Shown: positions 1,836 to 59,742 of the stretch, piece by piece
How the letters are laid out: each line of letters opens with the position of its first letter
Position numbering within the stretch: position 1 is the stretch's first letter
Origin: Bosea sp. PAMC 26642
GTDB lineage: Bacteria; Pseudomonadota; Alphaproteobacteria; Rhizobiales; Beijerinckiaceae
Length of the DNA: 64,000 nucleotides
Direction: 5' to 3'
Assembly (NCBI RefSeq): GCF_001562255.1
Contig: NZ_CP014301.1
Location: forward strand, 4,681,501-4,745,500
The notes under the pieces: generated by a model
What the model was told of the DNA's origin: nothing
What the model saw: only the letters and a program-made list of their open reading frames with translations
Database searches by the model: none
Translations under genes and position numbers: made by a program

Positions 1836-2109
1836 CGACGCGGCACAGTGCATGTTCGCGAGTCCAGAAACGCTCTGGACAGCGGATCTATGTCGAAGCG
1901 CTCGACCAAGATGCCGCTGCGACGCCACTCAGCCAGGGACTAAATTTCGCCCGGACTGCGACCGTTTGATCTACTTCGTCCAATCACCTACAGGAGCTGC
2001 AAGTGGAGATATCCGCGCAACAGGGGGCGGCTTGCCAATGCTCGCGCGTCCATGCATTGGAACGACCGTCAGGAATGCTCAAGAGAAGCAGGGCTCCGGG
2101 AAAATTTAC

Positions 2110-2898
2110 ATGGGTTTGGTAATACGAGGGGCTGCCGACGTCCTTGGAGGCCTCGGCGCCTGGCGCATGTGGTGGATGCTGGCCAAGAACGATGTGATCC
2201 GTCGCTACCGACGCTCCCGCGTAGGCCAGCTTTGGCTCACGCTTAGCATGGCGGTCATGATCTTTGGAATGGGAGCGGTTTATGCATCGCTGTTCGGCAC
2301 GTCCATGGCTGACTACCTACCGCATCTCGGCACGGGGCTCGTATTATGGGGACTGATTTCACAGACGATAACCGAAAGCTGCTCGAGCTTCACCGAAAAC
2401 GACAGTATCATTCGACAGATTGCGTTGCCACGATTTACTTATCTTCTTCGAACCATTTCACGCAATATATTTGTTTTTGCCCATAATATTATTATCTTGC
2501 CGATTGTTTTCTTGATTTATGGGTCACCGATCAACTGGCACATCATCTTGTTCATCCCGGGGGCGCTGCTCGTGCTAGCCAATCTGGCATGGGCTGGCTA
2601 TCTGCTTGCGATCCTCTCGGCGCGCTTTCGTGACATCCCGCAGATCATAGCGAGCATCATGCAAGTCGCATTCTTTGTCTCTCCGGTTGTTTTCAAGCCG
2701 TCGCAGCTTCGCGTCGACCATCCGGTGCTCATTTTGAACCCGTTTGCCAGCATGTTGGATGTTATGCGTGAGCCGCTGCTCGGAAATTTGCCGAGTTTGG
2801 CCTCCTATCTCATTTTACTTGGCCTGCTGATCTTCGGGTGGCTGGTTAGCCTGGCATTCGCGGGCAAATACTCGCACCGCGTCGTCTACTGGCTCTGA
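2110..2898 (+). CDS. Polysaccharide ABC transporter, permease subunit (Wzm/KpsM type)
   Basis: A 262-residue ABC-2 family integral membrane protein. After a cytoplasmic start (WWMLAKNDVIRRYRRSRVGQ) it has about six hydrophobic segments and ends in a short basic tail. The cytoplasmic motif with R-Y-R-R-S and the segment LWGLISQTITESCSSF are typical of O-antigen and capsule exporters. The open frame extends further upstream to 1852, but that part overlaps the IS flank and has no membrane features; ATG 2110 gives the family length. The ATPase partner starts 7 bp after the stop, so the two are probably co-transcribed. Likely role: exporting a completed polysaccharide chain across the inner membrane. 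Confidence 0.88.
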   Translation: MGLVIRGAADVLGGLGAWRMWWMLAKNDVIRRYRRSRVGQLWLTLSMAVMIFGMGAVYASLFGTSMADYLPHLGTGLVLWGLISQTITESCSSFTENDSIIRQIALPRFTYLLRTISRNIFVFAHNIIILPIVFLIYGSPINWHIILFIPGALLVLANLAWAGYLLAILSARFRDIPQIIASIMQVAFFVSPVVFKPSQLRVDHPVLILNPFASMLDVMREPLLGNLPSLASYLILLGLLIFGWLVSLAFAGKYSHRVVYWL

Positions 2899-2905
2899 GG
2901 GCATC

Positions 2906-3661
2906 ATGGCTCATATCGTTTTGGACAAGGCCAGTGTCGAGCTTGCGGTCTATAATTCGCGCGGCCGCGCACTCAAGAGCGAGATTTTGAGGCGAACGGT
3001 CGGCGGGGGCCTTCAAAATGATCGCGACAGCAGCATTCAGTTGGTCAAAGCGCTGAACGAGATCAGCTTCGAGGCCAAAGACGGTGACCGGATCGGGCTC
3101 GTCGGTGGAAATGGCGCCGGTAAGACGACGCTTTTGCGGGTACTCAGCCGCGTTTACCCACCGACTTCGGGCTACGCCACGATCGAAGGCCGCATCGCCT
3201 CGCTGATCGACCTCTCAATGGGTATGGATACCGACGCCACGGGGTATGACAACATCGAGATGCGCAGCATTATGTTGGGCTTGGACTATCAGCAGGCGGA
3301 AGCGATAATTCCCGACGTTGAAGAGTTCAGCCAACTCGGCGAGTTCCTGTCGCTGCCGATCCGCACATATTCCAGCGGTATGATGTTGCGGCTGGCCTTT
3401 GCCGTCAGCACCGCGGTTCATCCCGATGTCCTGATTCTCGACGAAGTGATCGGTGTTGGCGACGCGGCTTTCGCGGAGCGTGCCGAGCAGCGGCTGCGCA
3501 CGATGATCCAGAAGGCGAGCATCATGTTCCTGGCCTCCCATGACAGCAATTCGATCAAACGGTTTTGCAACCGCACGCTCTGGATGAAGAGCGGAAAGCT
3601 GATGATGGATGGCGCGCCCGATGAGGTCCTTGCGGCATACGCAGCGGATGGCGCCGCTTGA
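2906..3661 (+). CDS. Polysaccharide ABC transporter, ATP-binding subunit (Wzt/KpsT type)
   Basis: A 251-residue nucleotide-binding subunit. Walker A is GGNGAGKTT (about residues 67-75), the signature is YSSGMMLRLAF (about 155-165), Walker B with the catalytic glutamate is VLILDEVIGVGD (about 173-184), and the H-loop is FLASHDSNS. The degenerate signature YSSGM is characteristic of capsule and O-antigen exporters. It ends soon after the nucleotide-binding fold, so the extra C-terminal carbohydrate-binding domain of some Wzt proteins is absent; this resembles KpsT or short Wzt forms, where export is not gated by a chain-end cap. It pairs with the permease 7 bp upstream. Confidence 0.92.
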   Translation: MAHIVLDKASVELAVYNSRGRALKSEILRRTVGGGLQNDRDSSIQLVKALNEISFEAKDGDRIGLVGGNGAGKTTLLRVLSRVYPPTSGYATIEGRIASLIDLSMGMDTDATGYDNIEMRSIMLGLDYQQAEAIIPDVEEFSQLGEFLSLPIRTYSSGMMLRLAFAVSTAVHPDVLILDEVIGVGDAAFAERAEQRLRTMIQKASIMFLASHDSNSIKRFCNRTLWMKSGKLMMDGAPDEVLAAYAADGAA

Positions 3662-5669: not shown

Positions 5670-5713
5670 CGCCACTCCATCAAACACGGATTGGTATCTT
5701 CGGAGGCTTCCCT

Positions 5714-12657: not shown

Positions 12658-12663
12658 GACGTC

Positions 12664-18269: not shown

Positions 18270-19118
18270 TCACACATGCAGCATCGGCTTCCGCGCAACG
18301 GCTACAACGCTGGTGCCAAACGGCATCGTCGCGCCGGTCATCAACCGCAGTCGTTCCGACTCCAGCATTTTCGCAAGCATGCGTCCGACGACGTTGTCGG
18401 GCAGATGGTGATCGTCCGACACCGACCGTCCGAGACCTTTGAGGCGGCCAAATAGCGAGGGAATCGCACGCAACAGGAAGAGTGGCAGGACAAGCGGCGC
18501 GAACATAAAACTCGTATGGACAACTTCGAAGCCCGCGACTCGTAGCGCCCCGGCTGCGGAGCGCGTCGTATAGCGGCGCATATGCCCCGCCAGTTGGTCT
18601 TCATTGGACCAAAGCCAACCGAAGGCAGGCACCGACATGTAAATCCAGCCTCCGGGAATCAAGGCCCGGTGAAGGTCCGCCAGGACGCCGGGCTCATCGG
18701 CTATGTGCTCGAGGACGTCAAACAATCCCATTGCCGCAACGCTGTTGTCGGAAATTGCAGCCGATGCAACCGTCGCGTTGATGACCGGTAGGCCACGCAT
18801 CCGCGCCGCGGCCGCGCCTTGCGGGCCGGGTTCGAGCACGATTGCGTCGAAGCCGTTCTGCTGAAGCGCCAGGCTCACGATGCCGTTGCCCCCCCCGATG
18901 TCGAGGATCGGACCCGTGGGTGGAAAACGCTCGACGAGCGAATTGATGCACCGATTGCGATGCGCGAACCAATAGGACGACGCCTCGATTGCAGCGTAAT
19001 CGCCATGAAACTCTTCTGGATAGGAAACGGGTTCGGTGCCTTTGCCCACCCAGAAGCCGTCCTGGTTCTTCATCAGCGTCGGCGATATCAATGCAATCGT
19101 CTGATCGATGCTGGGCAT
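18270..19118 (-). CDS. Class I SAM-dependent methyltransferase
   Basis: A 282-residue methyltransferase. Motif I is GPILDIGGGNGIVSLAL (69-85), the acidic end of strand two is VLEP, and GLFDVLEHIADEPGVL contains the motif-IV region typical of the Methyltransf_11/23 group. A hydrophobic C-terminal part (FAPLVLPLFLLRAIPSLF) suggests membrane association. The frame opens upstream at 19202, but ATG 19118 gives MPSIDQTIAL and the usual spacing before motif I. It lies alone between IS630 and the GT operon. Such genes in surface-glycan clusters may methylate sugars or a lipid carrier; the substrate is unknown. Confidence 0.85.
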   Translation of the reverse strand: MPSIDQTIALISPTLMKNQDGFWVGKGTEPVSYPEEFHGDYAAIEASSYWFAHRNRCINSLVERFPPTGPILDIGGGNGIVSLALQQNGFDAIVLEPGPQGAAAARMRGLPVINATVASAAISDNSVAAMGLFDVLEHIADEPGVLADLHRALIPGGWIYMSVPAFGWLWSNEDQLAGHMRRYTTRSAAGALRVAGFEVVHTSFMFAPLVLPLFLLRAIPSLFGRLKGLGRSVSDDHHLPDNVVGRMLAKMLESERLRLMTGATMPFGTSVVAVARKPMLHV

Positions 19119-19252
19119 AAAATGGCGACCTGCCTTAATCCTGACCGACGGTGCTTGCCCCGAGGCACATCGCCGACCCGACCTTAAAATCAAATACCGC
19201 ACGTCCTTAAGACAAAGGACGTGCCGTGGCCAGCGTCTAGAGCGTTTCCAGT

Positions 19253-19819
19253 TTATTTTGGATCATATCCTGCGGCTTTGAAGAAGTTTGCGCATTCGGC
19301 TGGTGTGAAGAGGTCGATGACCGATCCGATGGCGTCCCATAGGGCTGGGATGGTCCTTTCGGCTCTGGCGCGCAGGAGCGACGTGAGCTTGGAGAATGCG
19401 TTCTCCATCGGGTTGAAGTCGGGACTGTAGGGCGGCAGGAACGAGAGTGTGGCGCCGGCCCTTTCGACCGCCTCGCAGACGCTGGCCAGCTTATGGGCTG
19501 GAAGATTGTCCATGACGACGATGTCGCCAGGCTTCAGCGTCGGCACCAGAACTTGTTCGACATAGGCAAGGAAGACCACGCCGTTCATGGCGCCGTCGTA
19601 GACGAAGGGCGCGGTCATGCCCGTGAGACGCAAGCCACCGACGAAGGTCGTCGTCTTCCAATGCCCGTGCGGGATGCCGGCCCGGCAGCGCTCGCCGCGA
19701 AGGGCGCGGCCGCGCAGGCGGGCCATATTGGTGGACAGGCCGGTCTGGTCGATGAAGACGAGGCGTTCCGGGTCGAGATCGGGCTGAGCCTCAAACCAGT
19801 CCTGCCGCCGCTTCAGCAC
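19253..19819 (-). CDS. IS630 transposase, catalytic part (orfB, made by frameshift)
   Basis: A 188-residue catalytic domain with the three acidic positions visible: VFIDQTG, VMDNLPAHK and NPMENAFSKL. It carries the family marks GHWKTTTFVGGLRLTG and LPPYSPDFNP. It has no good start of its own. Read upstream, the frame runs back as KKTAHALEQDRPDVLKRRQ to the A7 run at 19854-19860 (T7 on the plus strand), where a -1 slip joins it to orfA. The product is therefore probably one fused transposase. Confidence 0.88.
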   Translation of the reverse strand: MLKRRQDWFEAQPDLDPERLVFIDQTGLSTNMARLRGRALRGERCRAGIPHGHWKTTTFVGGLRLTGMTAPFVYDGAMNGVVFLAYVEQVLVPTLKPGDIVVMDNLPAHKLASVCEAVERAGATLSFLPPYSPDFNPMENAFSKLTSLLRARAERTIPALWDAIGSVIDLFTPAECANFFKAAGYDPK

Positions 19820-20157
19820 ATCGGGGCGATCCTGCTCCAGTGCGTGGGCGGTCTTTTTTTGAACGTCCAGCCATGCGCCCGTAGCCAGGCGCTCAGTGCG
19901 CTGTGGCCGATGGCGACAGCCCTATCGGCAGCCAGGCGAGCCATCATCTCGTTCAGCGTGATGTCCTTGCGCTCATCGATCAGCCCCACGATGAAGGCCT
20001 CATGCGCATCCAGCCGCGAAACCCGTCGCCGACCCTGCAGCTGTGCCGTTGTCACGCCGATCCTGGCCCGCGCAATCCACCGGATCGCCGTCGATATCCC
20101 CACCCCGAACCGCGCTGCCGTCTGCCGCGCCGACAAACCGTCCGTCGAAGCCTTCAA
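19813..20157 (-). CDS. IS630 transposase, DNA-binding part (orfA)
   Basis: A 114-residue N-terminal part with a helix-turn-helix (ARQTAARFGVGISTAIRWIA) and a second helical region ending at GWTFKKRP, where the slippery A7 lies. Without a frameshift it ends in an unrelated tail (THWSRIAPMC). The listed start is TTG, but the frame can be read further upstream as SDDLRGRVL to about 20190, as in other IS630 proteins. No ATG, GTG or TTG is seen in that part, so the true start is uncertain. Confidence 0.8.
   Translation of the reverse strand: MKASTDGLSARQTAARFGVGISTAIRWIARARIGVTTAQLQGRRRVSRLDAHEAFIVGLIDERKDITLNEMMARLAADRAVAIGHSALSAWLRAHGWTFKKRPPTHWSRIAPMC
19854..19860 (-). other. A7 slippery site for programmed -1 frameshift in IS630
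   Basis: A run of seven A on the minus strand lies exactly where orfA and orfB must be joined. Reading TTC-AAA-AAA-AAG after a -1 slip gives a continuous IS630 transposase. The pseudogene copy has the same run at 39930-39936, which supports a conserved mechanism rather than a chance homopolymer. Confidence 0.75.
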
Positions 20158-20518: not shown

Positions 20519-20526
20519 TTTTGGCT

Positions 20527-21237
20527 GTGAATACAACGTCCAAACCAAAAAAAATTCTGATGTGGGGAAGTAAAAGTAAGGCACGAATTATTCACGAGAT
20601 GATAGTAGAGCAAAATATAGGAATAGTAGAATTTATATTTGACGCCGACGCAGATTGTTTGAATTTTTCTACAAAGGCCGTATTGATCAATAGTATCGAT
20701 AAATTATTGGAATTGACACATGATATAAAGTACTTTGTTGTGTGTATTGGCGGAGAAAATGGATACGCAAGATTAAAAACATCACAGTATCTCTGTGAAA
20801 TCGCTCTAAAGCCACTTTCATTAATTCATGAAAGGGCTTTCATAGAACCAACGTCGGAGGTTGGTGTGGGATGTCATGTTATGCCATTCGTTGTTGTTCA
20901 CAAATTCAGCAAGATCGGCGAATATACGATCTTGAACACTAACTGCACGATCGATCATGAGTGCGTCATCGGTCGAGGCGTGCATGTAATGGGCAGCGCA
21001 GCTGTTGCAGGCCGCGTCGAGGTCAGTGATTTTGCTAGCATAGGGACGAACGCGACCATTCTGCCCGATCTCAAAATTGGTGAGGGAGCCGTTGTCGGCG
21101 CTGGCGCCGTCGTCACGAGAAACGTCGATCCTTATGACGTCGTCGCGGGGGTTCCTGCAAAAAAGATCAGTGAGCGACCGCGTCATGTCTATGATAACAT
21201 CGTCGAGCGGCTTCTCATCAGGGGCGGCCGTTCATAA
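20527..21237 (+). CDS. PglD/NeuD-family sugar acyltransferase, AT-rich first half
   Basis: A 236-residue protein. The N-terminal sugar-nucleotide binding part is ILMWGSKSKARIIHEMIVEQ, with a weaker glycine motif than usual. The C-terminal left-handed beta-helix runs from about residue 105 and carries the likely catalytic histidine in NTNCTIDHECVIGRG; it ends with VVAGVPAKKI. The first ~330 bp are clearly AT-richer than the second half and the neighbours, suggesting transfer or recombination. It converges on gtrA with a 6-bp overlap and lies next to wecE, so N-acetylation of the WecE product dTDP-Fuc4N is a reasonable guess. Confidence 0.85.
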   Translation: MNTTSKPKKILMWGSKSKARIIHEMIVEQNIGIVEFIFDADADCLNFSTKAVLINSIDKLLELTHDIKYFVVCIGGENGYARLKTSQYLCEIALKPLSLIHERAFIEPTSEVGVGCHVMPFVVVHKFSKIGEYTILNTNCTIDHECVIGRGVHVMGSAAVAGRVEVSDFASIGTNATILPDLKIGEGAVVGAGAVVTRNVDPYDVVAGVPAKKISERPRHVYDNIVERLLIRGGRS

Positions 21238-21705
21238 TGACGAATTGCCCCGGTCGTCTTGCTTGCTTTTTGCAAAAGCGAAGATGTCGAGCAGAACGAA
21301 GCTCAAGACAGCGACGGCAATCATGCCAAAGGCCTGGATAAGAACCGCGTCGAATCCGAGCAGGTTATGAGCAACGAACTGAAGCAGGGCCTGCGTTCCG
21401 GCGCCAACGGCATGAACGAGGATGTAACGTGACGCCGCGACGGGATGCGGGATATCGGAACTGAAGGACCAGGATCGGTTTGCCGCATAAGTCCCGGCGA
21501 CGCCAAGTCCATAGACCGTCATCGCGGCCGGGACGGCACCCAGACCCATGTGCGTCAAGACGATGAACACGCACAACAGGCTGGCATTGGAAACCAAGCC
21601 TACCACCGCAAAGCGGTAGAGTCTTCGGGAGCGCTGGCTCGATAGGAAATCGTGTGTTCTTCGAGTAATTTGAAACGGATTTCGGTTTGACCGCACGGTA
21701 GACAC
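21232..21705 (-). CDS. gtrA: GtrA-family membrane protein (putative flippase of lipid-linked sugar)
   Basis: A 157-residue protein with four membrane segments: LYRFAVVGLVSNASLLCVF, VPAAMTVYGLGVAGTYAA, a third around YILVHAVGAGTQALLQFV and VLIQAFGMIAVAVLSFVLLD. The RFAVVGLVSN opening and the NRSWSF motif between helices 2 and 3 are GtrA hallmarks. GtrA is thought to flip undecaprenyl-phosphate sugars made by GtrB. The GtrB-like gene starts upstream on the same strand, and the GtrII-like protein is divergently encoded beyond wecE. Confidence 0.9.
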   Translation of the reverse strand: MSTVRSNRNPFQITRRTHDFLSSQRSRRLYRFAVVGLVSNASLLCVFIVLTHMGLGAVPAAMTVYGLGVAGTYAANRSWSFSSDIPHPVAASRYILVHAVGAGTQALLQFVAHNLLGFDAVLIQAFGMIAVAVLSFVLLDIFAFAKSKQDDRGNSSL

Positions 21706-21866
21706 CCTCCGGCCCGCAGCGCGGGACGCACACGAAATTCATCCGCTTTGCCGCACCAAATGGCGCTCTAGCTCTGAGCTGGAACCGGATGATTGCACAC
21801 CGAAGCACCAGTGAATCCTCAACTACGGTTGCCGGAGTGAGAGCCGAGATCAATCGCAAACATGAG

Positions 21867-22925
21867 TCAGTTGCTTTTTGTGCGTGCGGACGACGTTTTC
21901 TCGGAACCGCTCCGGTTGCCGAGTTTAATGCCGTTCATCGTTTGGTCCACGATGAAGTTCGGACGGCCTTTAGCCTCGACGAGGATGCGTCCGACATACA
22001 ATCCGGTGAGCCCCAACGCGAAAGCCAGGCAACCCGCGATGAACCAGAGCGATAGAATGATACTCGTCCATCCTTCGACCCTGACGGCCCCAACGAAATG
22101 GAGCAAGACGACCGCGAACGAAACAACCAAAGACAAGAACGCAACCGTCAAACCAGCCGACATCACTAGTTTTAAAGGTCTGTCCGAAAAGCCGACAATG
22201 ACGCTCATCGCGAGATTGATCAGGCTATGATAGTTATAGCTCGACTTTCCCTCATGCCGTTGGCCATGCGAAACGTTCAGATCGGTGCGCGCGAAGCCTA
22301 CCCACTGAATAATAGCCGGGAAATACTTTAATTCCTCGTCCCAGCTCGTCACGGTGTCGATCACCCTGCGATGGTAGATGCCGAAATTGGCGACCTCTGC
22401 AATCTGTTCGGTTCCCGTGAGAAATCCAAGCAGCCGGTAGAAGGCGCTTGAGACCGCCCGGCGATGCCAGGCATCCGCACGAACCGCCCGGCGACCACGA
22501 ACGACGTCATAGCCTTCGCCGGCCTTGGCAAGCAGGGCCGGTATTTCTTCTGGAATGTCTTGGAGGTCGCAATCCATGACCACGATCCACGTCCCGCGAA
22601 CGGAAGACAAGCCTGCCTGGATCGCAGCGTGCTGACCAAAATTCCGGGAGAGACGAAGGCCGATGACGCTACTGTCTTCTTCGGCGAGTTGCCGGACAAC
22701 AAGCCAGGAGCCTTTCGGACAGCGGTCGTCGACGAGGATGAGCTCATAAGTAACCCCCATCGTTGCACACACGTCGCGGACCCGGGCATGCAACGGCCGA
22801 AGACTCTCCGGCGCGCCATAGACTGGAACGACAACCGAAAGATAAGGGTCGCCCGTAACGTCCGATGGATCGGCGACCGGTCCCATCGCCGCGGCCAACC
22901 GGGTCGGACGTGGCGTATCGCTCAC
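21867..22925 (-). CDS. GtrB/DPM1-like polyprenyl-phosphate glycosyltransferase
   Basis: About 352 residues from GTG 22925. The GT2 catalytic domain has LSVVVPVYGAPESLRPLHAR, ILVDDRCPKGSW, SRNFGQHAAIQAGLS and the DXD motif in VVMDCDLQD; RHEGKSSYNYHSLINLA is also typical. Two C-terminal membrane helices follow, as in GtrB and ArnC, which load a sugar onto undecaprenyl phosphate. GTG 22925 comes one base after the wecE stop; GTG 22991 (inside wecE) and ATG 22886 are alternatives. Directly after wecE, this enzyme is a candidate to transfer Fuc4NAc rather than glucose, which is inference. Confidence 0.87.
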   Translation of the reverse strand: MSDTPRPTRLAAAMGPVADPSDVTGDPYLSVVVPVYGAPESLRPLHARVRDVCATMGVTYELILVDDRCPKGSWLVVRQLAEEDSSVIGLRLSRNFGQHAAIQAGLSSVRGTWIVVMDCDLQDIPEEIPALLAKAGEGYDVVRGRRAVRADAWHRRAVSSAFYRLLGFLTGTEQIAEVANFGIYHRRVIDTVTSWDEELKYFPAIIQWVGFARTDLNVSHGQRHEGKSSYNYHSLINLAMSVIVGFSDRPLKLVMSAGLTVAFLSLVVSFAVVLLHFVGAVRVEGWTSIILSLWFIAGCLAFALGLTGLYVGRILVEAKGRPNFIVDQTMNGIKLGNRSGSEKTSSARTKSN

Positions 22926-22926
22926 G

Positions 22927-24057
22927 TCAAGCCGATCCGATATGGGATAGAACGCGATCGATGACGATCTCCTGGTCGTCGCCGAGGTCACGAAACAACG
23001 GCAGGCGGATCAGGCGATCGCTCGTCGCGTCCGTATGGACCAGTTCACCGCTAGTTCGGCCATATCGAAGTCCCGCCGGGGCTGAATGCAGCGGGATATA
23101 ATGGAAAGGGGCGAGAATTCCGTCTTCCGCAAGGCTGACGATCAGGCCGTCTCGCGCAATCTTACTCTTTAGCAGTAGATAGTAGATGTGCCCGTTGTGG
23201 CTGCAATGCTGCGGCACGGTGGGACGAACAACGCATTCTTTGAGCTCGGCTGACTGGAAGCCTTGATGGTAGCGGTTCCAGATATTCATCCGCATCGTAG
23301 TCGTATCGTCGCCAGCTTCGAACTGCGCCCATAGATGGGCTGCTATAATCTCGGCGGGGAGATATGACGAGCCGATATCGACCCATGTGTATTTATCGAC
23401 GGTGCGCTTGCGGAAGGCAGTGCGGTTGGTGCCTTTCTCGCGAATGATGTCGGCGCGCTCGACCAGTTTGGGATCGTTGATGAGGATCGCGCCGCCTTCG
23501 CCTGACACCAAATTCTTGGTCTCATGGAAGCTGAAACAAGAGATTGTGCTGAGCGAGCCTGCAGGGCGGTCAAAATAGCTCGACAGCAGCGCCTGCGCCG
23601 CATCCTCGATGATCATCAGGCCATGGCGGTCGGCAATGTTCTGGATAGCGTCCATCTCGGCGCAGACACCGGCATAGTGCACAGCCACGATGACCTTGGT
23701 CCGGGGAGTTATCGCAGCCTCGATCAACGCCGGATCAATGTTCAGCGTGTCTGGACGGATATCTATAAAAACGGGCGTGGCGCCGCGCAGCACAAAAGCA
23801 TTTGCGGTCGATACGAACGTGAAGGACGGCATGATGACTTCGTCGCCCGGTCCGACATCGGCCAGAATCGCCGCCATCTCGAGCGCCGCCGTGCAGGAAT
23901 GGGTGAGCCGTGCTGTGCCGCCGATCCGCGCTTCGAGCCATGCCTCGCAGCGCTTTGAGAACGGACCGTCACCCGATAGATGCCTTGTCTCCAGCGCTTC
24001 GCGGATGAAATCTATCTCCCGGCCAGTTACCGCTGGGCGATTATATGGCACACGCAT
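22927..24057 (-). CDS. wecE: dTDP-4-amino-4,6-dideoxygalactose transaminase (WecE/RffA)
   Basis: A 376-residue PLP sugar aminotransferase that follows WecE along its whole length: PSFTFVSTANAFVLRGA (77-93), VPVHYAGV-like VAVHYAGVCAEMD, IIEDAAQ (D152), FSFHETKN with Schiff-base K181, REKGTNRTAFRKRTVDKYTW, DIGSSYLPAEI and FHYIPLHSAPAG. WecE converts dTDP-4-keto-6-deoxyglucose, made by RfbA and RfbB (encoded at 53.4-56.8 kb), to dTDP-Fuc4N. It sits upstream of the GtrB-like gene and is divergent from the GtrII-like gene across 154 bp. No other enterobacterial-common-antigen gene is present, so the sugar probably enters another glycan. Confidence 0.92.
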   Translation of the reverse strand: MRVPYNRPAVTGREIDFIREALETRHLSGDGPFSKRCEAWLEARIGGTARLTHSCTAALEMAAILADVGPGDEVIMPSFTFVSTANAFVLRGATPVFIDIRPDTLNIDPALIEAAITPRTKVIVAVHYAGVCAEMDAIQNIADRHGLMIIEDAAQALLSSYFDRPAGSLSTISCFSFHETKNLVSGEGGAILINDPKLVERADIIREKGTNRTAFRKRTVDKYTWVDIGSSYLPAEIIAAHLWAQFEAGDDTTTMRMNIWNRYHQGFQSAELKECVVRPTVPQHCSHNGHIYYLLLKSKIARDGLIVSLAEDGILAPFHYIPLHSAPAGLRYGRTSGELVHTDATSDRLIRLPLFRDLGDDQEIVIDRVLSHIGSA

Positions 24058-24211
24058 TCGTTCGGTCTCGTTGCTGCGGTGAGCGCGAATGTCGGTCGCA
24101 GGCGCGACCCCACGCGCCCGAATATTGCACGCGATCTCTATTCCGGGCTATCGCCTTCAAGCAGTGGTGCTCTATCGGCGCCTGAGCGTGCAGTCAACAG
24201 GATTACGATAG

Positions 24212-25789
24212 ATGCGTCCTTCGAACACGGGTATCCATAATCGAGGGGCGTCCGAATGGAGTTCCGCAAAATTCGGAAGAATTATAGATTTGTTACGCGA
24301 AAACCTCCAAAAATACGGTATAACGTTATTTATCGCGAGTTTACTTTCGGTTGCTGCACGAGGGCAAACTATATTTTCACCGCTATATTCATTCGACAGA
24401 TACGAATTTGCATATCTTGCAGAAAAATTGAATCCTCCCGAATTTTTGCTACCACAAGGTCGCTTTGGACTTGCAGCAATTTTCTGGCTGCGCGGGCTCA
24501 TTGGTTATGATGGCACGGATATTGGCGTCAGCTCGCTCATCCTTGCGGTGTTGTTCTTCGCTGCCGCGGGCATTTTCTTCGCCAAACTCGTACTTGATAA
24601 TCCGACGAGGAGTGAATTGAGCATCTTCCTTGCCATCATGACGCTGCATCCGTTTGGCACAGAGTTTTTCACATTCTCGGATGCCACGCTTAACATTATG
24701 ATAGGCCTGCTCCTCTCGGCAGCAGGGGCATTCCTGGCAGCGCGTTCTTCAAACCAATGGGTCTCAATTGGCATTGCGACACTTTTGCTGATTGCGGCTT
24801 TGTCAATCTATCAAACTACAATCGCGTATGTCCTGCCGCTTTGCCTGATCGCGTTGGTCGTCAGGATCAGCCGGCGTGAACTCCCAGCGTTCCAACAGCC
24901 ATTTTTTCAGTGGCCGGAATTCCGGGCGTTGATCGTGGTGCTGGCGAGTGTTGTGGTTTATTTGGCTGTGGCAAAATTGATCTCACACGTCAGCGGTGTG
25001 CCGCTTGATGGGCGTACCGATTTCGCGGGCCTGGTCGATGTAAAAGCCAAGCTCAGCATCGTTTGGACGGCATTGACGCTTGCGCTTTGGCCTATGCCGG
25101 GGCTCCTGCCTGCGGGCGCATCCATTCTCCTGATCGTGTTGCTGACCATCTCGACGATCCTAGTGATCTTTCCCATGCTGAGGAACGGCCTGGTGCTCTC
25201 CGGTATTCTTTGTGCGGCCATGCTTGCTGCGGGACTTGGGTGGGCCGTGGGGGCATCGGCAGTGGGGAAGGTTATTTGGCTCGTTCCGCGCGTGCTGGCG
25301 CCGATGTCGGCTTTCGCCGCAGGCCTGATCATGGTGGGCTGGCATCTCGCGTCGCTGCGATCCAAGGCGCTTTTTGGCGTCGCCTCCGTCGTGCTCGTCC
25401 TTGCTTACATAGGCTCGTCCAATCGCATACTTTCCGAACAGCACCGACTCAATCACTGGGATGCCCAGCAGGCGAATCGGATCGTCGACCGCCTGGAAAG
25501 GCATCCGCGCTTCGTCGATATCCGATCGCTCGCCATCATCGGCGGGGACTGGCGCAGGAGCGCTCGACTTGTGACGACAACGGGTGACATGAACGTCTCG
25601 GCGTTTTTTTCTCGCCCGTCCAAACTGGGACTCATCCAGGAAGCTTCAGGCTACCGCTTTGAGAAAACCACCGCAACTGAATACACTGACGCCGAGCAAT
25701 ATTGCCAGACAGCGCCGCATTTCCCGGCGGACGCGTCGGTGACGGTGCTCGGTAGCGTTGGAATTGTGTGCCTGGTGAAACTAGAGTGA
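24212..25789 (+). CDS. GtrII-like integral membrane glycosyltransferase
   Basis: A 525-residue polytopic protein with about ten to twelve hydrophobic segments. LYSFDRYEFAYLAEKLNPPE in the first outer loop and the helices around ALSIYQTTIAYVLPLCLIAL resemble the GtrII/GtrC serotype-conversion glucosyltransferases, which move a sugar from a lipid carrier to the O-chain outside the membrane. The ~150-residue C-terminal part is soluble. Family assignment is by pattern only. The first ~300 bp are AT-rich. It is divergent from wecE, gtrB-like and gtrA, completing a three-part decoration set with them. Confidence 0.72.
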   Translation: MRPSNTGIHNRGASEWSSAKFGRIIDLLRENLQKYGITLFIASLLSVAARGQTIFSPLYSFDRYEFAYLAEKLNPPEFLLPQGRFGLAAIFWLRGLIGYDGTDIGVSSLILAVLFFAAAGIFFAKLVLDNPTRSELSIFLAIMTLHPFGTEFFTFSDATLNIMIGLLLSAAGAFLAARSSNQWVSIGIATLLLIAALSIYQTTIAYVLPLCLIALVVRISRRELPAFQQPFFQWPEFRALIVVLASVVVYLAVAKLISHVSGVPLDGRTDFAGLVDVKAKLSIVWTALTLALWPMPGLLPAGASILLIVLLTISTILVIFPMLRNGLVLSGILCAAMLAAGLGWAVGASAVGKVIWLVPRVLAPMSAFAAGLIMVGWHLASLRSKALFGVASVVLVLAYIGSSNRILSEQHRLNHWDAQQANRIVDRLERHPRFVDIRSLAIIGGDWRRSARLVTTTGDMNVSAFFSRPSKLGLIQEASGYRFEKTTATEYTDAEQYCQTAPHFPADASVTVLGSVGIVCLVKLE

Positions 25790-25894: not shown

Positions 25895-27463
25895 TCAGCC
25901 GGTTTCGACCAACTGGACGATGTGACGTAATTTGTCGTCATCGGCGGATGGTGTAATCCAATTTAAAAATTCTACGAGCATGGTGCCGGCATTGGCTGGT
26001 TCGGTGAGAAAGAATTTACCGACATAGCGCGACAGCTTGGCCGCCGTGGCATTCCGGTCAAAACCAGCGCAATCGACGATCGCAATATAGAGCACCCGGC
26101 GCCTGGGCTCGTTTGCCGGCTCTCGTCCAGCATAGCATCTCTGTGTTGGCGCCTCGGACAGAGAGCCATATGAGCCGGTCGTCGGGCCTCCCGTCGGCAA
26201 TGTCGCGGCCAGCGCATTCTGCTGCGTCGCAACAACCGGCGTCGTCTCGGTCGCGTTGCTCAGACCAAGCTCTTTGAGATAGATTTCATACCTAGTTGAA
26301 GACGAACGTAGGCTGCCTTGGAAGACCGGCGATTTGTCGCCATGGTTCCAGAGAATGTACTCGTCGAGCGCGGACGCCACGTTCGCACCCGATCCACCAT
26401 AGGCGAGCGTCGATCTCCAGTCGCCTGACCCGTCATCATAACGCGCCGTTTCATCGATTCTCCGAAACGCCGAATCCCGCGGGAGATGGTAGGGTGGATT
26501 GATCTCGGCCGCGTTCGGTGGCGACATGCAACTCTGATAGCGCTGCCCTTTGATGATGGTCGGCGCCGGAGGGAACGCGGCCAGTTCGGGGGCGATCGGA
26601 GCGTTAGCCTGTGCATAGCGGTCGAACCGAACATTGATCGCGTCGTCGAACTGTCTGGCGAGGACGCCCGAGCGATAGTTGATCGTATTCGTATAGCAGA
26701 AGGCCGGCCGATTGGAGGCAAGTCGTTGCGGCGTTGTCGTTCCATTGCCGTCACCCGGTGCGTCGAAGGTGACGAGCGAGCCGTCCGCCATTGTGGCGGC
26801 GTTTCTCAAGAGATACTGCCGACCACTCGAGGCGGAGGCGACGAAGCGCGCCGGGTCGCGCTGGCACATCATCAAGGGCGTGACGTCGCAGGCGTAGTAT
26901 TGCGATTCCGCCGTTGCCTTTCTTCGGATTGATTCCGTTTGTGCTCCGACGAACTGGATGAAGCTCGCGGTGAGAGAGTGACGGGATGTGGTAACCTCGA
27001 CATAGACCGCAGCGGCGCCGTTGACGTCAGCGAGAGTAAAGCTCGGGCTATCGCGCAGATCGGCTAGATTGGCTGCAAATCTGAAGCTGAGTCCGAGATC
27101 GGCATTGGCGCCGAATGAAGGTGTGTTGGTCATCCTTTTGGCTGCGTCTCTCGCCTTCTGCAGCGCTCCATCGGTCCGGTCCAGCTGTCTTGCCGCGGCC
27201 AATGCCGCAGCGTCGGCCGCATTAGCCAGCTGCGTGTCCAGCGTGTAGAGGCGACCGAGGTCTATCACCAACCCGACGATCCCGAGCAAGGCTGGCAGCG
27301 CCACGGCGAAAAAGACCAAGGTAAAGCCGCGCTCATCGCCGGCAAGCCGGCCAAACGCCGCGACTTTGCGCCGCCGCTTTTCCGAAATACTGCCCTGATC
27401 GGCCGACTTGACCGTATCTTCGACGGTTTCCACCTGCACTCCGTCAGATCTAATCTCGGTCAT
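25895..27463 (-). CDS. tadG: TadG-like Flp pilus assembly protein
   Basis: A 522-residue protein. Near residue 45 lies the pseudopilin-like helix GFTLVFFAVALPALLGIVGL followed by VIDLGRLYTLDTQLANAADA AALAAARQLD, the mark of the TadE/G-type Tad domain. The rest is a large extracytoplasmic part with several cysteines (YYACDVTPLMMCQRDP). TadG belongs to the envelope part of the tight-adherence machine. It is the last gene of the minus-strand tad operon and its start overlaps the preceding tadE-like stop by 14 bp. It converges on the GtrII-like gene with 105 bp between. Confidence 0.85.
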   Translation of the reverse strand: MTEIRSDGVQVETVEDTVKSADQGSISEKRRRKVAAFGRLAGDERGFTLVFFAVALPALLGIVGLVIDLGRLYTLDTQLANAADAAALAAARQLDRTDGALQKARDAAKRMTNTPSFGANADLGLSFRFAANLADLRDSPSFTLADVNGAAAVYVEVTTSRHSLTASFIQFVGAQTESIRRKATAESQYYACDVTPLMMCQRDPARFVASASSGRQYLLRNAATMADGSLVTFDAPGDGNGTTTPQRLASNRPAFCYTNTINYRSGVLARQFDDAINVRFDRYAQANAPIAPELAAFPPAPTIIKGQRYQSCMSPPNAAEINPPYHLPRDSAFRRIDETARYDDGSGDWRSTLAYGGSGANVASALDEYILWNHGDKSPVFQGSLRSSSTRYEIYLKELGLSNATETTPVVATQQNALAATLPTGGPTTGSYGSLSEAPTQRCYAGREPANEPRRRVLYIAIVDCAGFDRNATAAKLSRYVGKFFLTEPANAGTMLVEFLNWITPSADDDKLRHIVQLVETG

Positions 27464-28073
27464 CGGTGCTCATGTTTTCGCTCGGCATTGTCGCGGAGGC
27501 GCCGATCGCCAGCGAGGAGCCGAGAAGGTTGCCCAGAAACAGGAAATCATAGCGGAGATCGAGGATTTTGACTTGGACATTGACCGGCACGGGAACCGGC
27601 CGCCCGACATATCCCAGATAGTTCATCGCATAGCTCACCTCGATCTGGTCGGCTCGCAGTTGCGGAAGGATCGCGCGCATGGCCTCGCGGATAGGCGCCA
27701 GCCTGGCGTCGACGAGCAGGAAGTTGCAGCGCACGAAGCCCGGGCATATGCAGCGCTCACGAATGCTGCAGGTGACCGTGAAAATCGGACAGATGCTTTT
27801 GCGATCACGCTCAGGCGCGCATCTCTGGCCGAGCGGCAAGTCGTTCCAATATGCCGTGCTTTCGGCCGGCGTGAGGCCTGGACCATCGGCGACTGGCATC
27901 GAGACGATAGCCTTCCGCGCGCCCAGCTGGACAGCCTTCTGAGCGGAATTCTGCTGCCATAGAAACAGCGCCAGGTCGGCAGCGCCGAAAATCAAAACAA
28001 GGAGAACCGGTAAGACAAGCGCGGCCTCGATCAAAGCCGCACCGCTATCGTCCAAACGGGTTCTAATCCTCAA
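27450..28073 (-). CDS. TadE/TadF-like pseudopilin
   Basis: A 207-residue protein with an N-terminal TadE helix: SGAALIEAALVLPVLLVLIF, with glutamate near position +5 of the processed form as in pseudopilins. The body has a cluster of cysteines (CPIFTVTCSIRERCICPGF), probably disulfide bonded in the periplasm. TadE/TadF are processed by the prepilin peptidase and needed for Flp fibre formation. It overlaps the flanking tad genes by 11 and 14 bp. Confidence 0.85.
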   Translation of the reverse strand: MRIRTRLDDSGAALIEAALVLPVLLVLIFGAADLALFLWQQNSAQKAVQLGARKAIVSMPVADGPGLTPAESTAYWNDLPLGQRCAPERDRKSICPIFTVTCSIRERCICPGFVRCNFLLVDARLAPIREAMRAILPQLRADQIEVSYAMNYLGYVGRPVPVPVNVQVKILDLRYDFLFLGNLLGSSLAIGASATMPSENMSTDDRD

Positions 28074-28524
28074 TCGCTTGTTCCTGATGAGTGGCAGACA
28101 ACGTCAAAGATGGCTCGATGCCCAGGATCGCTAGGAGATCGAAGTTGACCTTCACATCCGCGCGCAACGCGACCGTGCCCGATACCAGCGTGCGAACCGG
28201 CATGACCGTCACCGCGCTGCCGGGGAGCTTCGTATTGCTCATGATTTCGTCGCGAGCAACGGCGATCGCATCCATGGCGCCCCAAGAGCATGTCGGCGAG
28301 CAGGTGGGATCGGGCACCAGCGCCAACAGGCGGGCACCGCCTCGCACAGCGGTCTCGATTGCGGCATGGATGAACAAAGCCCGCCCCAACTCAACGCCGC
28401 CAGCGCAAAGAACAACGAGAACAGGGAGCAGGAGAGCAAACTCCAAGATGGCGGTTCCAGATTCGCACGAGGTGAACCTCGATACTGAATGCAGGCGGCT
28501 GCGAAGCGGTTTCCTGTTTGGCAA
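28063..28524 (-). CDS. tadE: TadE-like pseudopilin
   Basis: A 153-residue protein with the TadE signature ESGTAILEFALLLPVLVVLC (21-40), a predicted G/T-A-I-L-E prepilin cleavage site, then a small extracytoplasmic domain with CSPTC. It probably acts with the second TadE/F-like protein encoded just downstream (11-bp overlap). It follows tadC after 28 bp. Confidence 0.87.
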   Translation of the reverse strand: MPNRKPLRSRLHSVSRFTSCESGTAILEFALLLPVLVVLCAGGVELGRALFIHAAIETAVRGGARLLALVPDPTCSPTCSWGAMDAIAVARDEIMSNTKLPGSAVTVMPVRTLVSGTVALRADVKVNFDLLAILGIEPSLTLSATHQEQAIED

Positions 28525-28552
28525 GGCCTTCCCCTGTCCTGGCGCCGATCAT

Positions 28553-29473: not shown

Positions 29474-29476
29474 CCT

Positions 29477-33071: not shown

Positions 33072-33118
33072 CGAGAACTAACTAATTGCCGGACCCAAGA
33101 CCACCTGCCCAAATCCTT

Positions 33119-34108: not shown

Positions 34109-34293
34109 TAAGAGCAATCCCCCGTCGGATTTGCGATTTTGCAGCTGATCTTGGTGAACTGGGCGTTGATGCTCGTGCCGGTAGCAGTCACGCCGACGAT
34201 TGCCACTAAGGCAATCAGCGCGACGAGCAGAGCATATTCCACCATCGCGGCACCGTCTTCAGCCTTCCAAAAACGTCGCAAAACCTGTCGCAT
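34108..34293 (-). CDS. flp: Flp/Fap major pilin
   Basis: A 61-residue type IVb pilin. The leader MRQVLRRFWKAEDG ends at the predicted cleavage G/AAMVEY, with the conserved E and Y at +5 and +6, followed by the hydrophobic helix ALLVALIALVAIVGV. The mature pilin is about 47 residues and ends with two cysteines (ISCKIANPTGDCS). The upstream TTG in frame (34311) is less likely because ATG 34293 has GGAG six bases before it. It is the only pilin gene in the window. Confidence 0.95.
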   Translation of the reverse strand: MRQVLRRFWKAEDGAAMVEYALLVALIALVAIVGVTATGTSINAQFTKISCKIANPTGDCS

Positions 34294-53378: not shown

Positions 53379-54254
53379 TCAGGTGCCAATATCGCCCGAC
53401 ACTTGCAGGATATAACGCCCGTAGTCACACTTGGCGAGCGTTTCTCCAAGGGCAACAAGTTGTGCCGCTGAGATCCAGCCCTGCCGGGCGGCGATTTCTT
53501 CCGGGCAGGCGATGCGCAGGCCCTGGCGGCTTTCCAGGGTGCGGACGAACTCGCCGGCTTCGAGCAGGCTGTCGGGGGTGCCGGTGTCGAGCCAGGCGAA
53601 GCCGCGGCCCATGCTCTCGACCGAGAGCTGGCCGCGCTCCAGATAGACCCGGTTGACGTCGGTGATCTCGAGTTCGCCGCGGGGCGAAGGCTTGAGGTTG
53701 GCGGCGATGTCGATCACCTGGGCGTCGAAGAAGTAGAGCCCGGTCACCGCCCAGTTCGATTTCGGCGCCTTGGGCTTTTCTTCGATCGAGATCGCCTTGC
53801 CGACCGCGTCGAATTCGACCACGCCGTAGCGTTCAGGATCGCGCACATGATAGGCGAAGACCGTCGCACCGGTCGCCCGGGCGCCGGCCGCCTGCATCAT
53901 CTCGGGCAGGCTGTGGCCGTAGAACAGGTTGTCGCCGAGGATCAGGACGGAGGGCTGCGACCCGACGAAATCCGCCGCGATGATATAGGCCTGCGCCAGG
54001 CCCGCCGGCGTCGGCTGCTCGGCGTAGGCGAGGTCGAGCCCCCATTCGGAGCCGTCGCCGAGCAGCCGCTGGAAATGCGGCACGTCGTGCGGCGTCGAGA
54101 TGATCAGGATCTCGCGGATGCCCGCCAGCATCAGCGTCGTCAGCGGGTAGTAGATCATCGGCTTGTCGTAGACCGGCAGCAGCTGCTTCGACATCGCCAG
54201 CGTCATCGGATGCAGCCGCGTGCCGGAGCCGCCGGCCAGAATGATGCCCTTCAT
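53379..54254 (-). CDS. rfbA: Glucose-1-phosphate thymidylyltransferase (RmlA)
   Basis: A 291-residue enzyme that makes dTDP-glucose from dTTP and glucose 1-phosphate. It shows [20 protein letters not shown] (3-22), [29 protein letters not shown] and [20 protein letters not shown], all family hallmarks. The usual length is ~290. The frame continues upstream, but ATG 54254 overlaps the rfbD stop by four bases. It is the last gene of the rfbB-C-D-A operon and supplies both dTDP-rhamnose and the WecE branch. Confidence 0.97.
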
Positions 54255-55156
54255 GATATCCGTCCTGTCTGTTCCGCGGCGATGAGCCGCTCCGCGCAGG
54301 CCCGCAGCGAGCCGCGCCACTCGGGCAGGGCCACGCCATGGGCTTGGGCGAGTTTGGATGAATCCAGCCGCGAATTGGCCGGTCGCCGCGCCGGCGTCGG
54401 GTAGTCCCGCGTCGCGATGCGCGTCACCCGCACGGGCGTCCTGCCAGCCGCGGTCGCGACCGCGAAAACGGTCTCCGCGACATCGGCCCAGACGGCCTCG
54501 CCCTGCGCCGCCATATGGAAGATGCCGCGCAGCGCTGGATCGCCTGGACGCTCCACAAGATTGCGGGCGACGCCGAGCACCGCATCGGCGATGTCGAGCG
54601 CGTTCGTCGGCGAGCCGGCCTGGTCGGCGACGACGCCGACCTCGTCGCGATCGGCGCCGAGCCGCAGCATGGTCCGCACGAAGTTCTTGCCGAAGGGGCT
54701 GTAGACCCAGGCCGTGCGCAGGATCGCATGGTTGTCGGTCGCCGCGATCACGGCCTGCTCGCCCCCGAGCTTGGAGCGGCCATAGGCCGAGACCGGCCCG
54801 GTCCGGTCGTCCTCGCGATAGGGCCGGTCGAGCGACCCGTCGAAGACATAGTCGGTCGAGATCTGGATCACCGGCACGCCGAGTCGGGCGGCGGTCGCAG
54901 CGACGATGCCGGCCGCCTCCGCATTGACCCTGTGCGCCGTCCCGCTCTCGCTCTCGGCGAGATCGACAGCGGTGTAGGCCGCGGCATTGACGATCACGTC
55001 GGGCTTTGCCGCCGTGAGCGCGGGCGCGATCGTCTCAAGCCGCTCCAGATCGAATGCGGGACGTCCCAGCGCGACGAGATCGATGCCCGACGCCGCGGCC
55101 CGCTCGGCGAGCGCCAGCGCGACCTGTCCGTTCTGTCCGGTGACGACAACTCTCAT
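54251..55156 (-). CDS. rfbD: dTDP-4-dehydrorhamnose reductase (RmlD)
   Basis: A 301-residue SDR doing the last step of dTDP-L-rhamnose synthesis. NAD(P) motif [24 protein letters not shown] with the catalytic threonine/serine, [12 protein letters not shown] with YxxxK and [23 protein letters not shown] 55156 is chosen over an upstream in-frame start. It overlaps rfbA by four bases and follows rfbC by 19 bp. Confidence 0.96.
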
Positions 55157-55776: not shown

Positions 55777-56832
55777 TCAGCCGGAGCCGAGCCGCTCGCC
55801 GCGATAGACGCCCGACCGGATGTCGCCCCACCAGGACGGATTGTCGAGATACCAGGCCACCGTCCGGCGCAAGCCTTTCTCAAAGGTCTCCTTCGGCGTC
55901 CAGCCGAGCTCGCGGCCGATCTTGCCGGCGTCGATCGCATAGCGCGCATCATGGCCCGGCCGGTCGGTGACGTAGGCGATCAGCCGCTCTCGCGGCCCCG
56001 CCGGATCGGGCCGCAACTCGTCGAGGATCGCGCAGATCGCGCGCACCACCTCGATATTGGCCATCTCGTTGTGCCCGCCGATATTGTAGGTCTCGCCGAG
56101 AACGCCCTTCTGCGCCACCAGCAGCAGCGCATCGGCGTGATCGTCGACGAAGAGCCAGTCGCGCACGTTCTGGCCGGAGCCGTAGACGGGCAGCGGCTTG
56201 CCCTCCAGCGCATTGATGATCATCAGCGGGATCAGCTTCTCGGGGAAGTGATACGGCCCGTAATTGTTCGAGCAGTTGGTCATCACCGTGGGCAGGCCAT
56301 AGGTGTGATGCCAGGCCCGCACGAGATGGTCCGAGGCCGCCTTCGAGGCCGAATAGGGCGAGTTCGGCTGATAGGCCGTGTCCTCGCGGAAGAGCCCCTC
56401 GTCGCCCAGCGAGCCGAAGACCTCGTCGGTCGAGATATGATGGAAACGGAAGGCCACCTTCCGATCCTCCGCCAACCCCCGCCAATACCGCAGCGCCTCC
56501 TGCAGCAGCGCGAAGGTGCCGACGATATTGGTCTGGATGAAGTCGTCCGGCCCGTCGATCGAGCGATCGACATGGCTCTCGGCAGCCAGATGCATGACGA
56601 CGTCGGGAGCGAAATCAGCAAACAGCGCCTGCATGGCCGCAGCATCGCAGATATCGGCCTGCTCGAAGCGAAAGCGGTTGCTGCCTGACACCAACGCCAG
56701 CGAAGCGAGATTGCCGGCATAGGTCAGCTTGTCGACCACGCAGACGCTGTGAGCCGTCTCCCCGATCAACTTGCGCACCACCGCCGAGCCGATGAAACCC
56801 GCCCCGCCCGTAACCAGAAACTTCAAAAACAC
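55777..56832 (-). CDS. rfbB: dTDP-glucose 4,6-dehydratase (RmlB)
   Basis: A 351-residue SDR dehydratase that makes dTDP-4-keto-6-deoxyglucose, the shared precursor of dTDP-rhamnose and of the WecE product. Motifs: [45 protein letters not shown] with the dehydratase T-D-E triad, [15 protein letters not shown] (YxxxK) and [18 protein letters not shown]. It is the first gene of the operon; about 195 bp lie upstream. Confidence 0.97.
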
Positions 56833-58587: not shown

Positions 58588-59472
58588 TCAATCGATTCCA
58601 GCCGGTGCTGGACCAAGCCGGCTGTTGAATCCATCGGCTAGTCCAATGCATATGGAACTTAACGACCCTGCCGGTCCTCTCAGCGCCAGCAGACCGATCT
58701 GAGCGGCAAGACTCGCACATGACTTGATCCGCCAGCGCAGCGGCACATGGCGAAGGCGCGCGGCTGCAATTACATTGCGTACATAGTAATAGTTGCGGAT
58801 CGGGCTGTGGCGAAGAATTTGGGCCTTGCCCATCTCCTCCTTGCTCACGGCCTCTCCCCAGCGGTGCGGCACTGTGAGATCTATTTCAATGTACGAGCCC
58901 CAGCCACGGTCCCAAGCCCGAAAACCCCATTCGACGTCAATGCCGGCGATGAAAAAATCATCTCTAAAGGGGCCGATTTCTGCATAGGCGGCGACGCTTA
59001 CCAGCGAACCCGAGGTCGGTGCGAAATCGACTGCAGCAATATCGTTCCCGCGGGGCTTTCCACGCCATTCATATCGGATGGGTTTGTAGAACTCCCCTTC
59101 CGGCGGCACGAGGCGCGGCGCCAGGATGGCGATCCTCTCACCTTGGCGTTCCAGCGCCATGAAACGTTCGGTCAGCGTTTCGAGGACCCCGGCTGGTGGC
59201 TCAGTATCCTGATCGAGCAGCATCACATGGGTAAACCCCTCCCGTGCAGCCGCTTCCATCACCGCGTTGAGGCCTCGACCCAGGCCAAGGTTTTCCGGAC
59301 TTGAAAAAAGCCGGAGCTCTGTCGGGGCCAAGGCTTCAATGAGTTCGGCGTCCAAATAGCCGTTAGCAAACGCAAAAAAGGGGCACCCGCGCAGCGCATC
59401 GGCTTGCCTGGCGAGCAAGACGTGGTCTGGTTTGTATAGCACCACAGCCGCGCAGGCGCGTGCACCTCGCAT
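58588..59472 (-). CDS. Family 2 glycosyltransferase, rhamnosyltransferase-like
   Basis: A 294-residue GT-A enzyme of the RfbF/RhlC-like group: [58 protein letters not shown] with the DQD metal motif, [20 protein letters not shown] and [20 protein letters not shown]. Many of these transfer L-rhamnose from dTDP-rhamnose, made by the rfb genes nearby. ATG 59472 follows an ideal AGGAGG and is chosen over the start at 59493. It is followed directly by the acyltransferase. Confidence 0.88.
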
Positions 59473-59475
59473 TTG

Positions 59476-59483
59476 CACCTCCT
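59476..59483 (-). promoter_or_regulatory. Strong ribosome binding site of the rhamnosyltransferase-like gene
   Basis: AGGAGGTG on the minus strand, with the core AGGAGG five bases before ATG 59472. It fixes that start. Confidence 0.65.
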
Positions 59484-59742
59484 GCGGTCTCATCGCGCTG
59501 CCATCTTTCTCTCGCGATACGCGGAATCAGCAGGCGCAACGCGACATCAATCGCTCAGGTGCCACGGCGCGTCCGAGAGCAGACCGCGCCGCGAGCGCAT
59601 CGCGAGAACTCGCTTTGCGTCAACTCATGACGAGTCCAGTACTCATTCACCAACCTTGCCCGCCATACGCCGCCTGCGCGATAAGGGTCAATGGCCTGGC
59701 TGTCTGCCCTGGCGCAACAAAGCATCCAAGAGCCTCCTCAGC

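Follow-up and report, generated by a model that had tools for sequence, protein, structure and literature searches.

A WecE-linked family 2 glycosyltransferase and a predicted lipid-carrier decoration system for an acylated 4-amino sugar in Bosea sp. PAMC 26642

We examined a stretch of 64,000 nucleotides of Bosea sp. PAMC 26642 (contig NZ_CP014301.1, positions 4,681,501 to 4,745,500; hereafter the window), and found a block at 20521-25789 that encodes a NeuD/PglD-type acyltransferase, GtrA, a family 2 glycosyltransferase (GT2), the transaminase WecE and a GtrII-family membrane protein. This block probably encodes a system that decorates an outside acceptor with a 4-acylamino-4,6-dideoxyhexose delivered on polyprenyl phosphate; the sugar is most likely 4-acetamido-4,6-dideoxy-D-galactose (D-Fuc4NAc). 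The enzyme families, their folds, the linkage of the genes and a family-wide change at the putative catalytic position of GtrB were established from sequences and predicted structures, and they are described first.

A GT2 family linked to wecE

The association of wecE with the GT2 in other genomes had been set beforehand as a test of this reading. We compared the loci of the nearest GT2 relatives, ranked by shared peptides on contigs from one genome per species; these are the best 80 of 412 and not a random sample. WecE was found within 5 kb (0 to 4978 bp) of the GT2 in 66 of the 80, and on the same strand in 64. The linked relatives come from seven phyla (Pseudomonadota, Bacteroidota, Campylobacterota, Cyanobacteriota, Bdellovibrionota, Lentisphaerota and Actinomycetota). 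All 66 linked WecE proteins and that of the window match both WecE models at E <= 1e-112. Among the 14 relatives with no WecE nearby, seven have the GT2 at most 3.5 kb from the end of the sequence stretch.

As a baseline, we used 385 genomes of the class, in which WecE exceeded its cut-off in 15. GT2 matches at E <= 1e-40 numbered at least 100, in 88 genomes; at most five candidates were scored per genome, and the 100 matches are a lower bound. WecE lay within 6 kb in 4 of these 100, the window's pair included. This is a fairer comparison than Fisher's test of the 66/80 linked relatives against 0/19 of the GtrB group (p = 8e-12), a group whose rows were partly hand-chosen. Because the wecE-GT2 pair recurs in 66 of the 80 nearest relatives, the pairing goes beyond chance. 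By the initial annotation, absence of the association from every other genome would have refuted its reading; the association does recur, and the five-part set also occurs on two plasmids, described below.

The partner genes point to the sugar. An amine-capping enzyme (WecD-like, formyltransferase or hexapeptide type) lies near 62 of the 66 linked GT2s: GNAT in 43, hexapeptide in 11 (one also with GNAT) and formyltransferase in 9, with none detected in 4. Three of the GNAT labels are weak, at 36-50 bits to the profile (L037, L072, L083). Thirty GNAT proteins, picked from the strong ones of 53 frames with the weak ones left out, were aligned, and 30/30 match both WecD models at E <= 1e-5; the two members with scores shown fall under the WecD cut-off. 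The best solved match of the GNAT profile is TDP-fucosamine acetyltransferase (2fs5), covering 4-232 of 236 positions, and the next matches cover mainly the GNAT core. This suggests that WecD-like and WecE proteins perform the final two steps to dTDP-Fuc4NAc in most linked relatives, beside a polyprenyl-phosphate GT2. That acetyl-, formyl- and hexapeptide-type enzymes replace one another at this spot is what would be expected if the amine had to be capped before the sugar is loaded on the lipid, as ArnA caps it ahead of ArnC in the arn pathway. Large membrane proteins are found near the GT2 in 56 of the 66 linked loci.

The initial annotation described the GT2 as GtrB/ArnC-like with two C-terminal helices. 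We found these GtrB-type features (a GT-A domain, the DxD motif and two C-terminal membrane helices), and its predicted structure shares the ArnC/GtrB fold, including that of the UDP-glucose enzyme GtrB. Its top NCBIfam models are ArnC (189 bits) and PgfS (182 bits), with cut-offs far above at 529 and 500. Membership of ArnC (PRK10714) was rejected on this score.

Asp157 is described as the putative catalytic residue of GtrB in excerpted text (PMC4728340). The corresponding position is Asn in 81/81 members of the GT2 family, the window's included (N202), within a family motif A/G-N-F-G-x-Y. Asp stands there in 17/18 GtrB-like controls, which comprised the 14 next-ranked GT2 matches of the class-wide baseline not already fetched for a WecE, the genome's own second copy, E. 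coli YfdH, and two proteins whose genomes have WecE at a distant site. In a quick tree, the window's group is separate from the GtrB group, which consists of YfdH of E. coli and 18 further proteins; the fork holding this group of 85 has support 89 and is not starred, and several long branches are unsure, including the one by which L120 and L121 join ArnC. On the replacement of Asp157, with the support of the tree, membership of GtrB was rejected. Judged from alignment and tree, the GT2 is not a plain GtrB but a member of a WecE-linked family, and we predict it to be an Und-P-Fuc4NAc synthase (Und-P, undecaprenyl phosphate). Read from GTG 22991, the GT2 overlaps wecE by 65 bp. Its residues 1-45 have a predicted local distance difference test score (pLDDT) under 50 in the model, so ATG 22886 is the likelier start.

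Two further cases of a GT2 near WecE were noted. The tree holds a second, separate group of polyprenyl-phosphate-type GT2s (L116, L124, L127, L128, L133, L134), which is WecE-linked in 5/6; L124, L128, L133 and L134 also carry a methyltransferase of the family of window gene 18270-19202. In L120 and L121, both from the window's genus, a formyltransferase-type gene adjoins WecE, and an ArnC-like GT2 lies at most 5 kb away (the L120 one checked by Pfam). This arrangement is possibly a third independent pairing.

Enzymes of the block and the proposed pathway

All five reading frames that the initial annotation had placed in the block are open, and each product exceeds the cut-off of a family model, the GT2 only as PF00535 (Table 1). 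The gene order is acyltransferase (+), gtrA (-), GT2 (-), wecE (-), gtrII (+), so that wecE-GT2-gtrA form one leftward unit and the two outer genes read the opposite way.

WecE is the single protein over the WecE cut-off in this genome, and it exceeds that of both curated models. It scored 217 bits against the ArnB model PRK11658 (cut-off 631) and is not assigned to ArnB; the DesI model gave 150 bits (cut-off 650). The solved WecE structures 6blg and 4piw match at E ~1e-127, and the next family, ArnB, at 4.5e-51. The motif SFHETKN, whose Lys we take to bind pyridoxal phosphate, is invariant in the WecE alignment of 67. The galacto product (Fuc4N rather than its gluco counterpart, Qui4N) is predicted from sequence kinship.

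The acyltransferase exceeds the cut-off of the NeuD/PglB/VioB family model. Its nearest solved relatives include 2npo and 3bss (UDP-N-acetylbacillosamine N-acetyltransferase), 4ea7 (perosamine N-acetyltransferase) and 7txp (VioB), and its 'DHE' aligned with the 'HE' of these relatives, presumably the catalytic pair. Translation more probably starts at ATG 20560 than at TTG 20521. We predict that this enzyme caps the 4-amine of dTDP-Fuc4N. An earlier proposal that a PglD-like enzyme acetylates the amine holds for the family; acetyl itself is not required, as the formyltransferases of nine linked relatives show.

The genome holds one further GtrA match elsewhere. The product of 24212-25789, proposed earlier to have the GtrII fold, does belong to the GtrII Pfam family, and its predicted structure aligns with GT-C enzymes. 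GtrII is present in 1/397 genomes of the order, which is the window's own genome. Relatives 43-44% identical occur in two Microvirga genomes carrying near blocks, so that GtrII is found in 2/4 genomes with the nearest GT2 relatives, versus 1/397 of the order.

Based on these assignments, RmlA and RmlB would supply dTDP-4-keto-6-deoxyglucose, and WecE would aminate C4 to give dTDP-Fuc4N. The NeuD/PglD-type enzyme would then N-acetylate this product, and the GT2 would move the acylated sugar onto undecaprenyl phosphate. GtrA would carry Und-P-Fuc4NAc to the periplasmic side, where the GtrII-family GT-C enzyme would transfer the sugar to an acceptor outside. Going by the neighbouring genes only, the likeliest acceptor would be a rhamnose-containing O-polysaccharide that leaves the cell through the island's Wzm/Wzt-type transporter. 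The initial annotation had likewise read the block as a system that makes, loads, flips and adds a sugar. Gene linkage and enzyme families support that reading, in which the identity of the donor and its acyl group, the flipping step and the acceptor are inferred. RfbA and RfbB, which the initial annotation took as the source of the keto sugar, are present in the window (the rmlA and rmlB of Table 1).

The RfbB-like gene 12664-13656 was considered as another source of the WecE substrate and rejected: it is nearer to LegB (405 bits, cut-off 475) than to RmlB (157 bits, cut-off 365), and rmlAB are present. It belongs to a pair at 11935-13656, a LegB-like 4,6-dehydratase and a nucleotidyltransferase, neither at its curated cut-off, with close relatives in both Microvirga genomes.

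Alternative explanations and genomic context

Several observations weigh against the decoration reading. The acyltransferase and GtrII lie on the strand opposite to wecE-GT2-gtrA, hence the five genes are not a single operon. The rmlAB genes are ~28 kb from the block and serve rhamnose too. The Microvirga GtrII sits on a different contig from the block, and no GtrII was found in two Bradyrhizobium genomes whose GT2 relatives are just as near. Only 19 of the 80 loci have a recognisable flippase, GtrA or SMR, at most 5 kb from the GT2. Among the large membrane proteins of the linked loci, known GT-C Pfam families are rare (PMT_2 in 3 and GtrII in 2 of 59 scanned out of 81). WecE also occurs in eight further genomes of the genus and in one of the order with no close member of the GT2 family alongside; in six of these nine, another GT2 of the wider family lies within ~6 kb, at 151 bits or less to the window's GT2. 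Since these nine WecE genes adjoin no close member of the family, WecE serves other contexts too, and our claim is limited to linkage seen from the GT2. Finally, the nearest GT2 relatives indicate that the acyl group could be formyl. Beside the WecE-GT2 clusters, 4 of the 59 scanned membrane proteins, each from a different locus, match DUF6044 (PF19510; for example L038:10447-12147), a large membrane protein that is a candidate GT-C enzyme.

The possible formyl group bears on an alternative that we regard as unlikely but worth weighing, in which the same machine carries another cargo: a formyl or other acyl group, or another 4-amino-4,6-dideoxyhexose such as 4-amino-4,6-dideoxyglucose (Qui4N), with the acyltransferase at 20521 acting elsewhere. 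A formyltransferase takes the place of the acyltransferase in the nine linked relatives mentioned above (including L033, L034 and L036) and also in L035, and these four are the nearest by GT2 identity. The window holds a second NeuD beside a DesI-like aminotransferase (5049-6814), and the acyltransferase has solved relatives whose names refer to bacillosamine, perosamine or VioB, which we take to stand for other 4-amino sugars. Set against this, WecE is far over its cut-off, with solved WecE enzymes its best matches by a wide margin, and WecD-like proteins are the commonest partner in the linked relatives. The sole formyltransferase-type match in window 12000-34000 was that of ArnA, at 50 bits, to the LegB-like gene.

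It is very improbable that the genes are chance neighbours, with GtrA, GT2 and GtrII an ordinary UDP-glucose glucosylation set and WecE feeding a cytoplasmic O-antigen glycosyltransferase. In favour of this, the GT2 model has the fold of UDP-glucose GtrB, GtrII is absent from 2/4 genomes with the nearest GT2 relatives, and wecE stands in varied polysaccharide contexts both in related genomes and on five plasmids (on the plasmids judged without regard to the GT2 family). The 66/80 linkage in seven phyla against the 4/100 baseline, the separate position of the GT2 group in the quick tree and the invariant Asn count against it.

The two best plasmid matches to the GT2 (41% and 39% identical) are both from Rhodobacterales and are annotated merely as 'glycosyltransferase family 2 protein'. 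Both plasmids unite a large membrane protein and an acyltransferase with WecE, GT2 and GtrA. On the Pseudorhodobacter turbinis plasmid, a GNAT gene (49.6 bits to the WecD model, under the cut-off), wecE (rffA), a 508-residue membrane protein, GT2 and GtrA are adjacent. The plasmid of Ruegeria sp. SCSIO 43209 (L183) has wecE, GT2, GtrA, a hexapeptide acyltransferase and a 500-residue membrane protein; its GtrA, at L183:5168-5554, is absent from the listed annotation. The two membrane proteins gave no Pfam match, and from length and hydrophobicity alone they are suspected GT-C enzymes. A phage origin found no support: the best 20 of 117 phage GT2 matches are at most 35.0% identical. WecE had four matches in the phage collection, from Salmonella and Escherichia records, at 53% identity.

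Table 1. Features of the block and related genes of the window, with model scores and cut-offs
Feature	Position	Strand	Evidence
NeuD/PglD-type left-handed beta-helix N-acyltransferase	20521..21237	+	TIGR03570 165.7 bits, cut-off 160.8
GtrA, predicted lipid-linked-sugar flippase	21232..21705	-	PF04138 48.2 bits, cut-off 26.1
Polyprenyl-phosphate GT2, WecE-linked family, predicted Und-P-Fuc4NAc synthase	21867..22991	-	PF00535 83 bits, cut-off 23.3
WecE/RffA, dTDP-4-keto-6-deoxyglucose transaminase, predicted to yield dTDP-Fuc4N	22927..24057	-	PRK11706 548 bits, cut-off 375; TIGR02379 535, cut-off 434.85
GtrII-family GT-C membrane glycosyltransferase, predicted to pass the lipid-linked sugar to an outside acceptor	24212..25789	+	PF14264 (Glucos_trans_II) 72.4 bits, cut-off 30
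S-adenosylmethionine-dependent methyltransferase, possible extra part	18270..19202	-	141 bits to profile of methyltransferase from 7/80 loci
RmlA (RfbA), dTDP-glucose supply	53379..54320	-	TIGR01207 492 bits, cut-off 361
RmlB (RfbB), dTDP-4-keto-6-deoxyglucose supply	55777..56832	-	TIGR01181 482 bits, cut-off 365
Wzm/Wzt-type polysaccharide ABC exporter	1852..3661	+	galactan export Wzm 219 bits (cut-off 380), Wzt 256 (cut-off 400), both under
Rhamnosyltransferase-like gene	58588..59493		under its cut-off

The rmlABCD set lies within 53379-56832, each member over its curated cut-off. Genes resembling a Wzm/Wzt exporter are also found near the Microvirga GtrII in L180, judged by eye from translations. 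The methyltransferase gene is separated from the block by a transposase gene; the transposase-like genes at 19253-20157, between it and the acyltransferase, form two overlapping frames (IS630-type by eye), and several transposase genes were seen by eye within the island. Members of the methyltransferase family occur in L033-L036, L042, L048 and L104, and the family is not specific, being present also in the WecE-less control loci L141-L143, L150 and L151. Directly beyond the block, Tad/Flp pilus assembly-like genes occupy 25895-34117 (by eye from frames). By its enzyme families, a second amino-sugar pathway lies in the same island at 5049-6814, where another NeuD-type acyltransferase (175.5 bits, above the cut-off) overlaps a DegT aminotransferase nearest to DesI. 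G+C content was discarded as evidence: the block has 54-58%, and the rml genes and the window's right end have 60-68%, but other parts of the window are as low as the block.

Relation to known systems

The block resembles several known kinds of system and differs from each. It would work like arnBCADTEF, which places 4-amino-4-deoxy-L-arabinose (Ara4N) on lipid A, with a Gtr-type flippase and a GT-C enzyme. It differs in that the transaminase is WecE and not ArnB, the nucleotide would be dTDP instead of UDP, the flippase is GtrA and the GT-C enzyme belongs to the GtrII family, and the GT2 falls far under the ArnC cut-off. With the gtrABC (gtrA-gtrB-gtr(type)) systems of O-antigen glucosylation it shares GtrA, a GT2 of GtrB fold and a GtrII-family GT-C enzyme, but the block has its own amino-sugar genes, and its GT2 family has Asn for Asp157 and forms a separate group in the tree. 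On the missed ArnB and ArnC cut-offs and the missing putative catalytic Asp of GtrB, the block belongs to neither arn nor Gtr. Enterobacterial common antigen (ECA) synthesis shares wecE, and most linked relatives add a WecD-like GNAT. There, WecF adds Fuc4NAc to lipid II (according to annotation), whereas the next enzyme of the block is a polyprenyl-phosphate GT2; no WecF-like protein was found in window 12000-34000 at E <= 1e-4.

Three-component pentofuranose systems use a lipid-linked single sugar, a flippase and a GT-C enzyme that adds side sugars outside; PPPRS and PRP domains, which do not resemble GtrB-type enzymes, make their lipid donor, and three-component decoration is described there for glucose, galactose and pentofuranoses (Kelly et al. 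2024, PMC11127046). The block shares this plan and differs in having a GtrB-fold GT2 in place of PPPRS and PRP. As excerpted, PMC12826051 gives arnC and gtrB as separate entry points of Und-P pathways; it is the one paper, among the matches listed, in which WecE occurs with GtrA and GtrB, and it places them under separate pathways. A wecE in a Pseudomonas syringae O-antigen locus is assigned to rhamnose synthesis (excerpt of PMC12608077). According to the excerpted part of one survey, Fuc4NAc is confined to Gammaproteobacteria (PMC7725333); the WecE and WecD-like partners that we found in Bacteroidota, a cyanobacterium (L048) and Bdellovibrio (L047) suggest a wider distribution. Under six spellings, Und-P-Fuc4NAc was named in no paper of the open-access collection searched, and wider searches returned no paper on such a system among the matches listed (titles and abstract starts, with subscription papers uncovered). 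The initial annotation knew of no described Gtr system with its own amino-sugar pathway; taken more broadly, such a pathway is known for a lipid-carrier system, the arnBCADTEF set of E. coli.

Taken together, we lean, with somewhat less confidence than for the block itself, towards the view that polyprenyl-phosphate-sugar glycosylation has a third and widespread branch in addition to those for glucose (Gtr) and Ara4N (Arn). In this branch, a dedicated GT2 family with the Asn motif would load acylated dTDP-Fuc4N sugars made by its own WecE together with an acyltransferase of WecD-like, formyl- or hexapeptide type. The branch would span at least seven phyla, with plasmids as occasional carriers. 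If this is true, a donor sugar could be assigned to scores of genes, and cells could attach surface Fuc4NAc externally, as a decoration, as well as internally in the manner of ECA.

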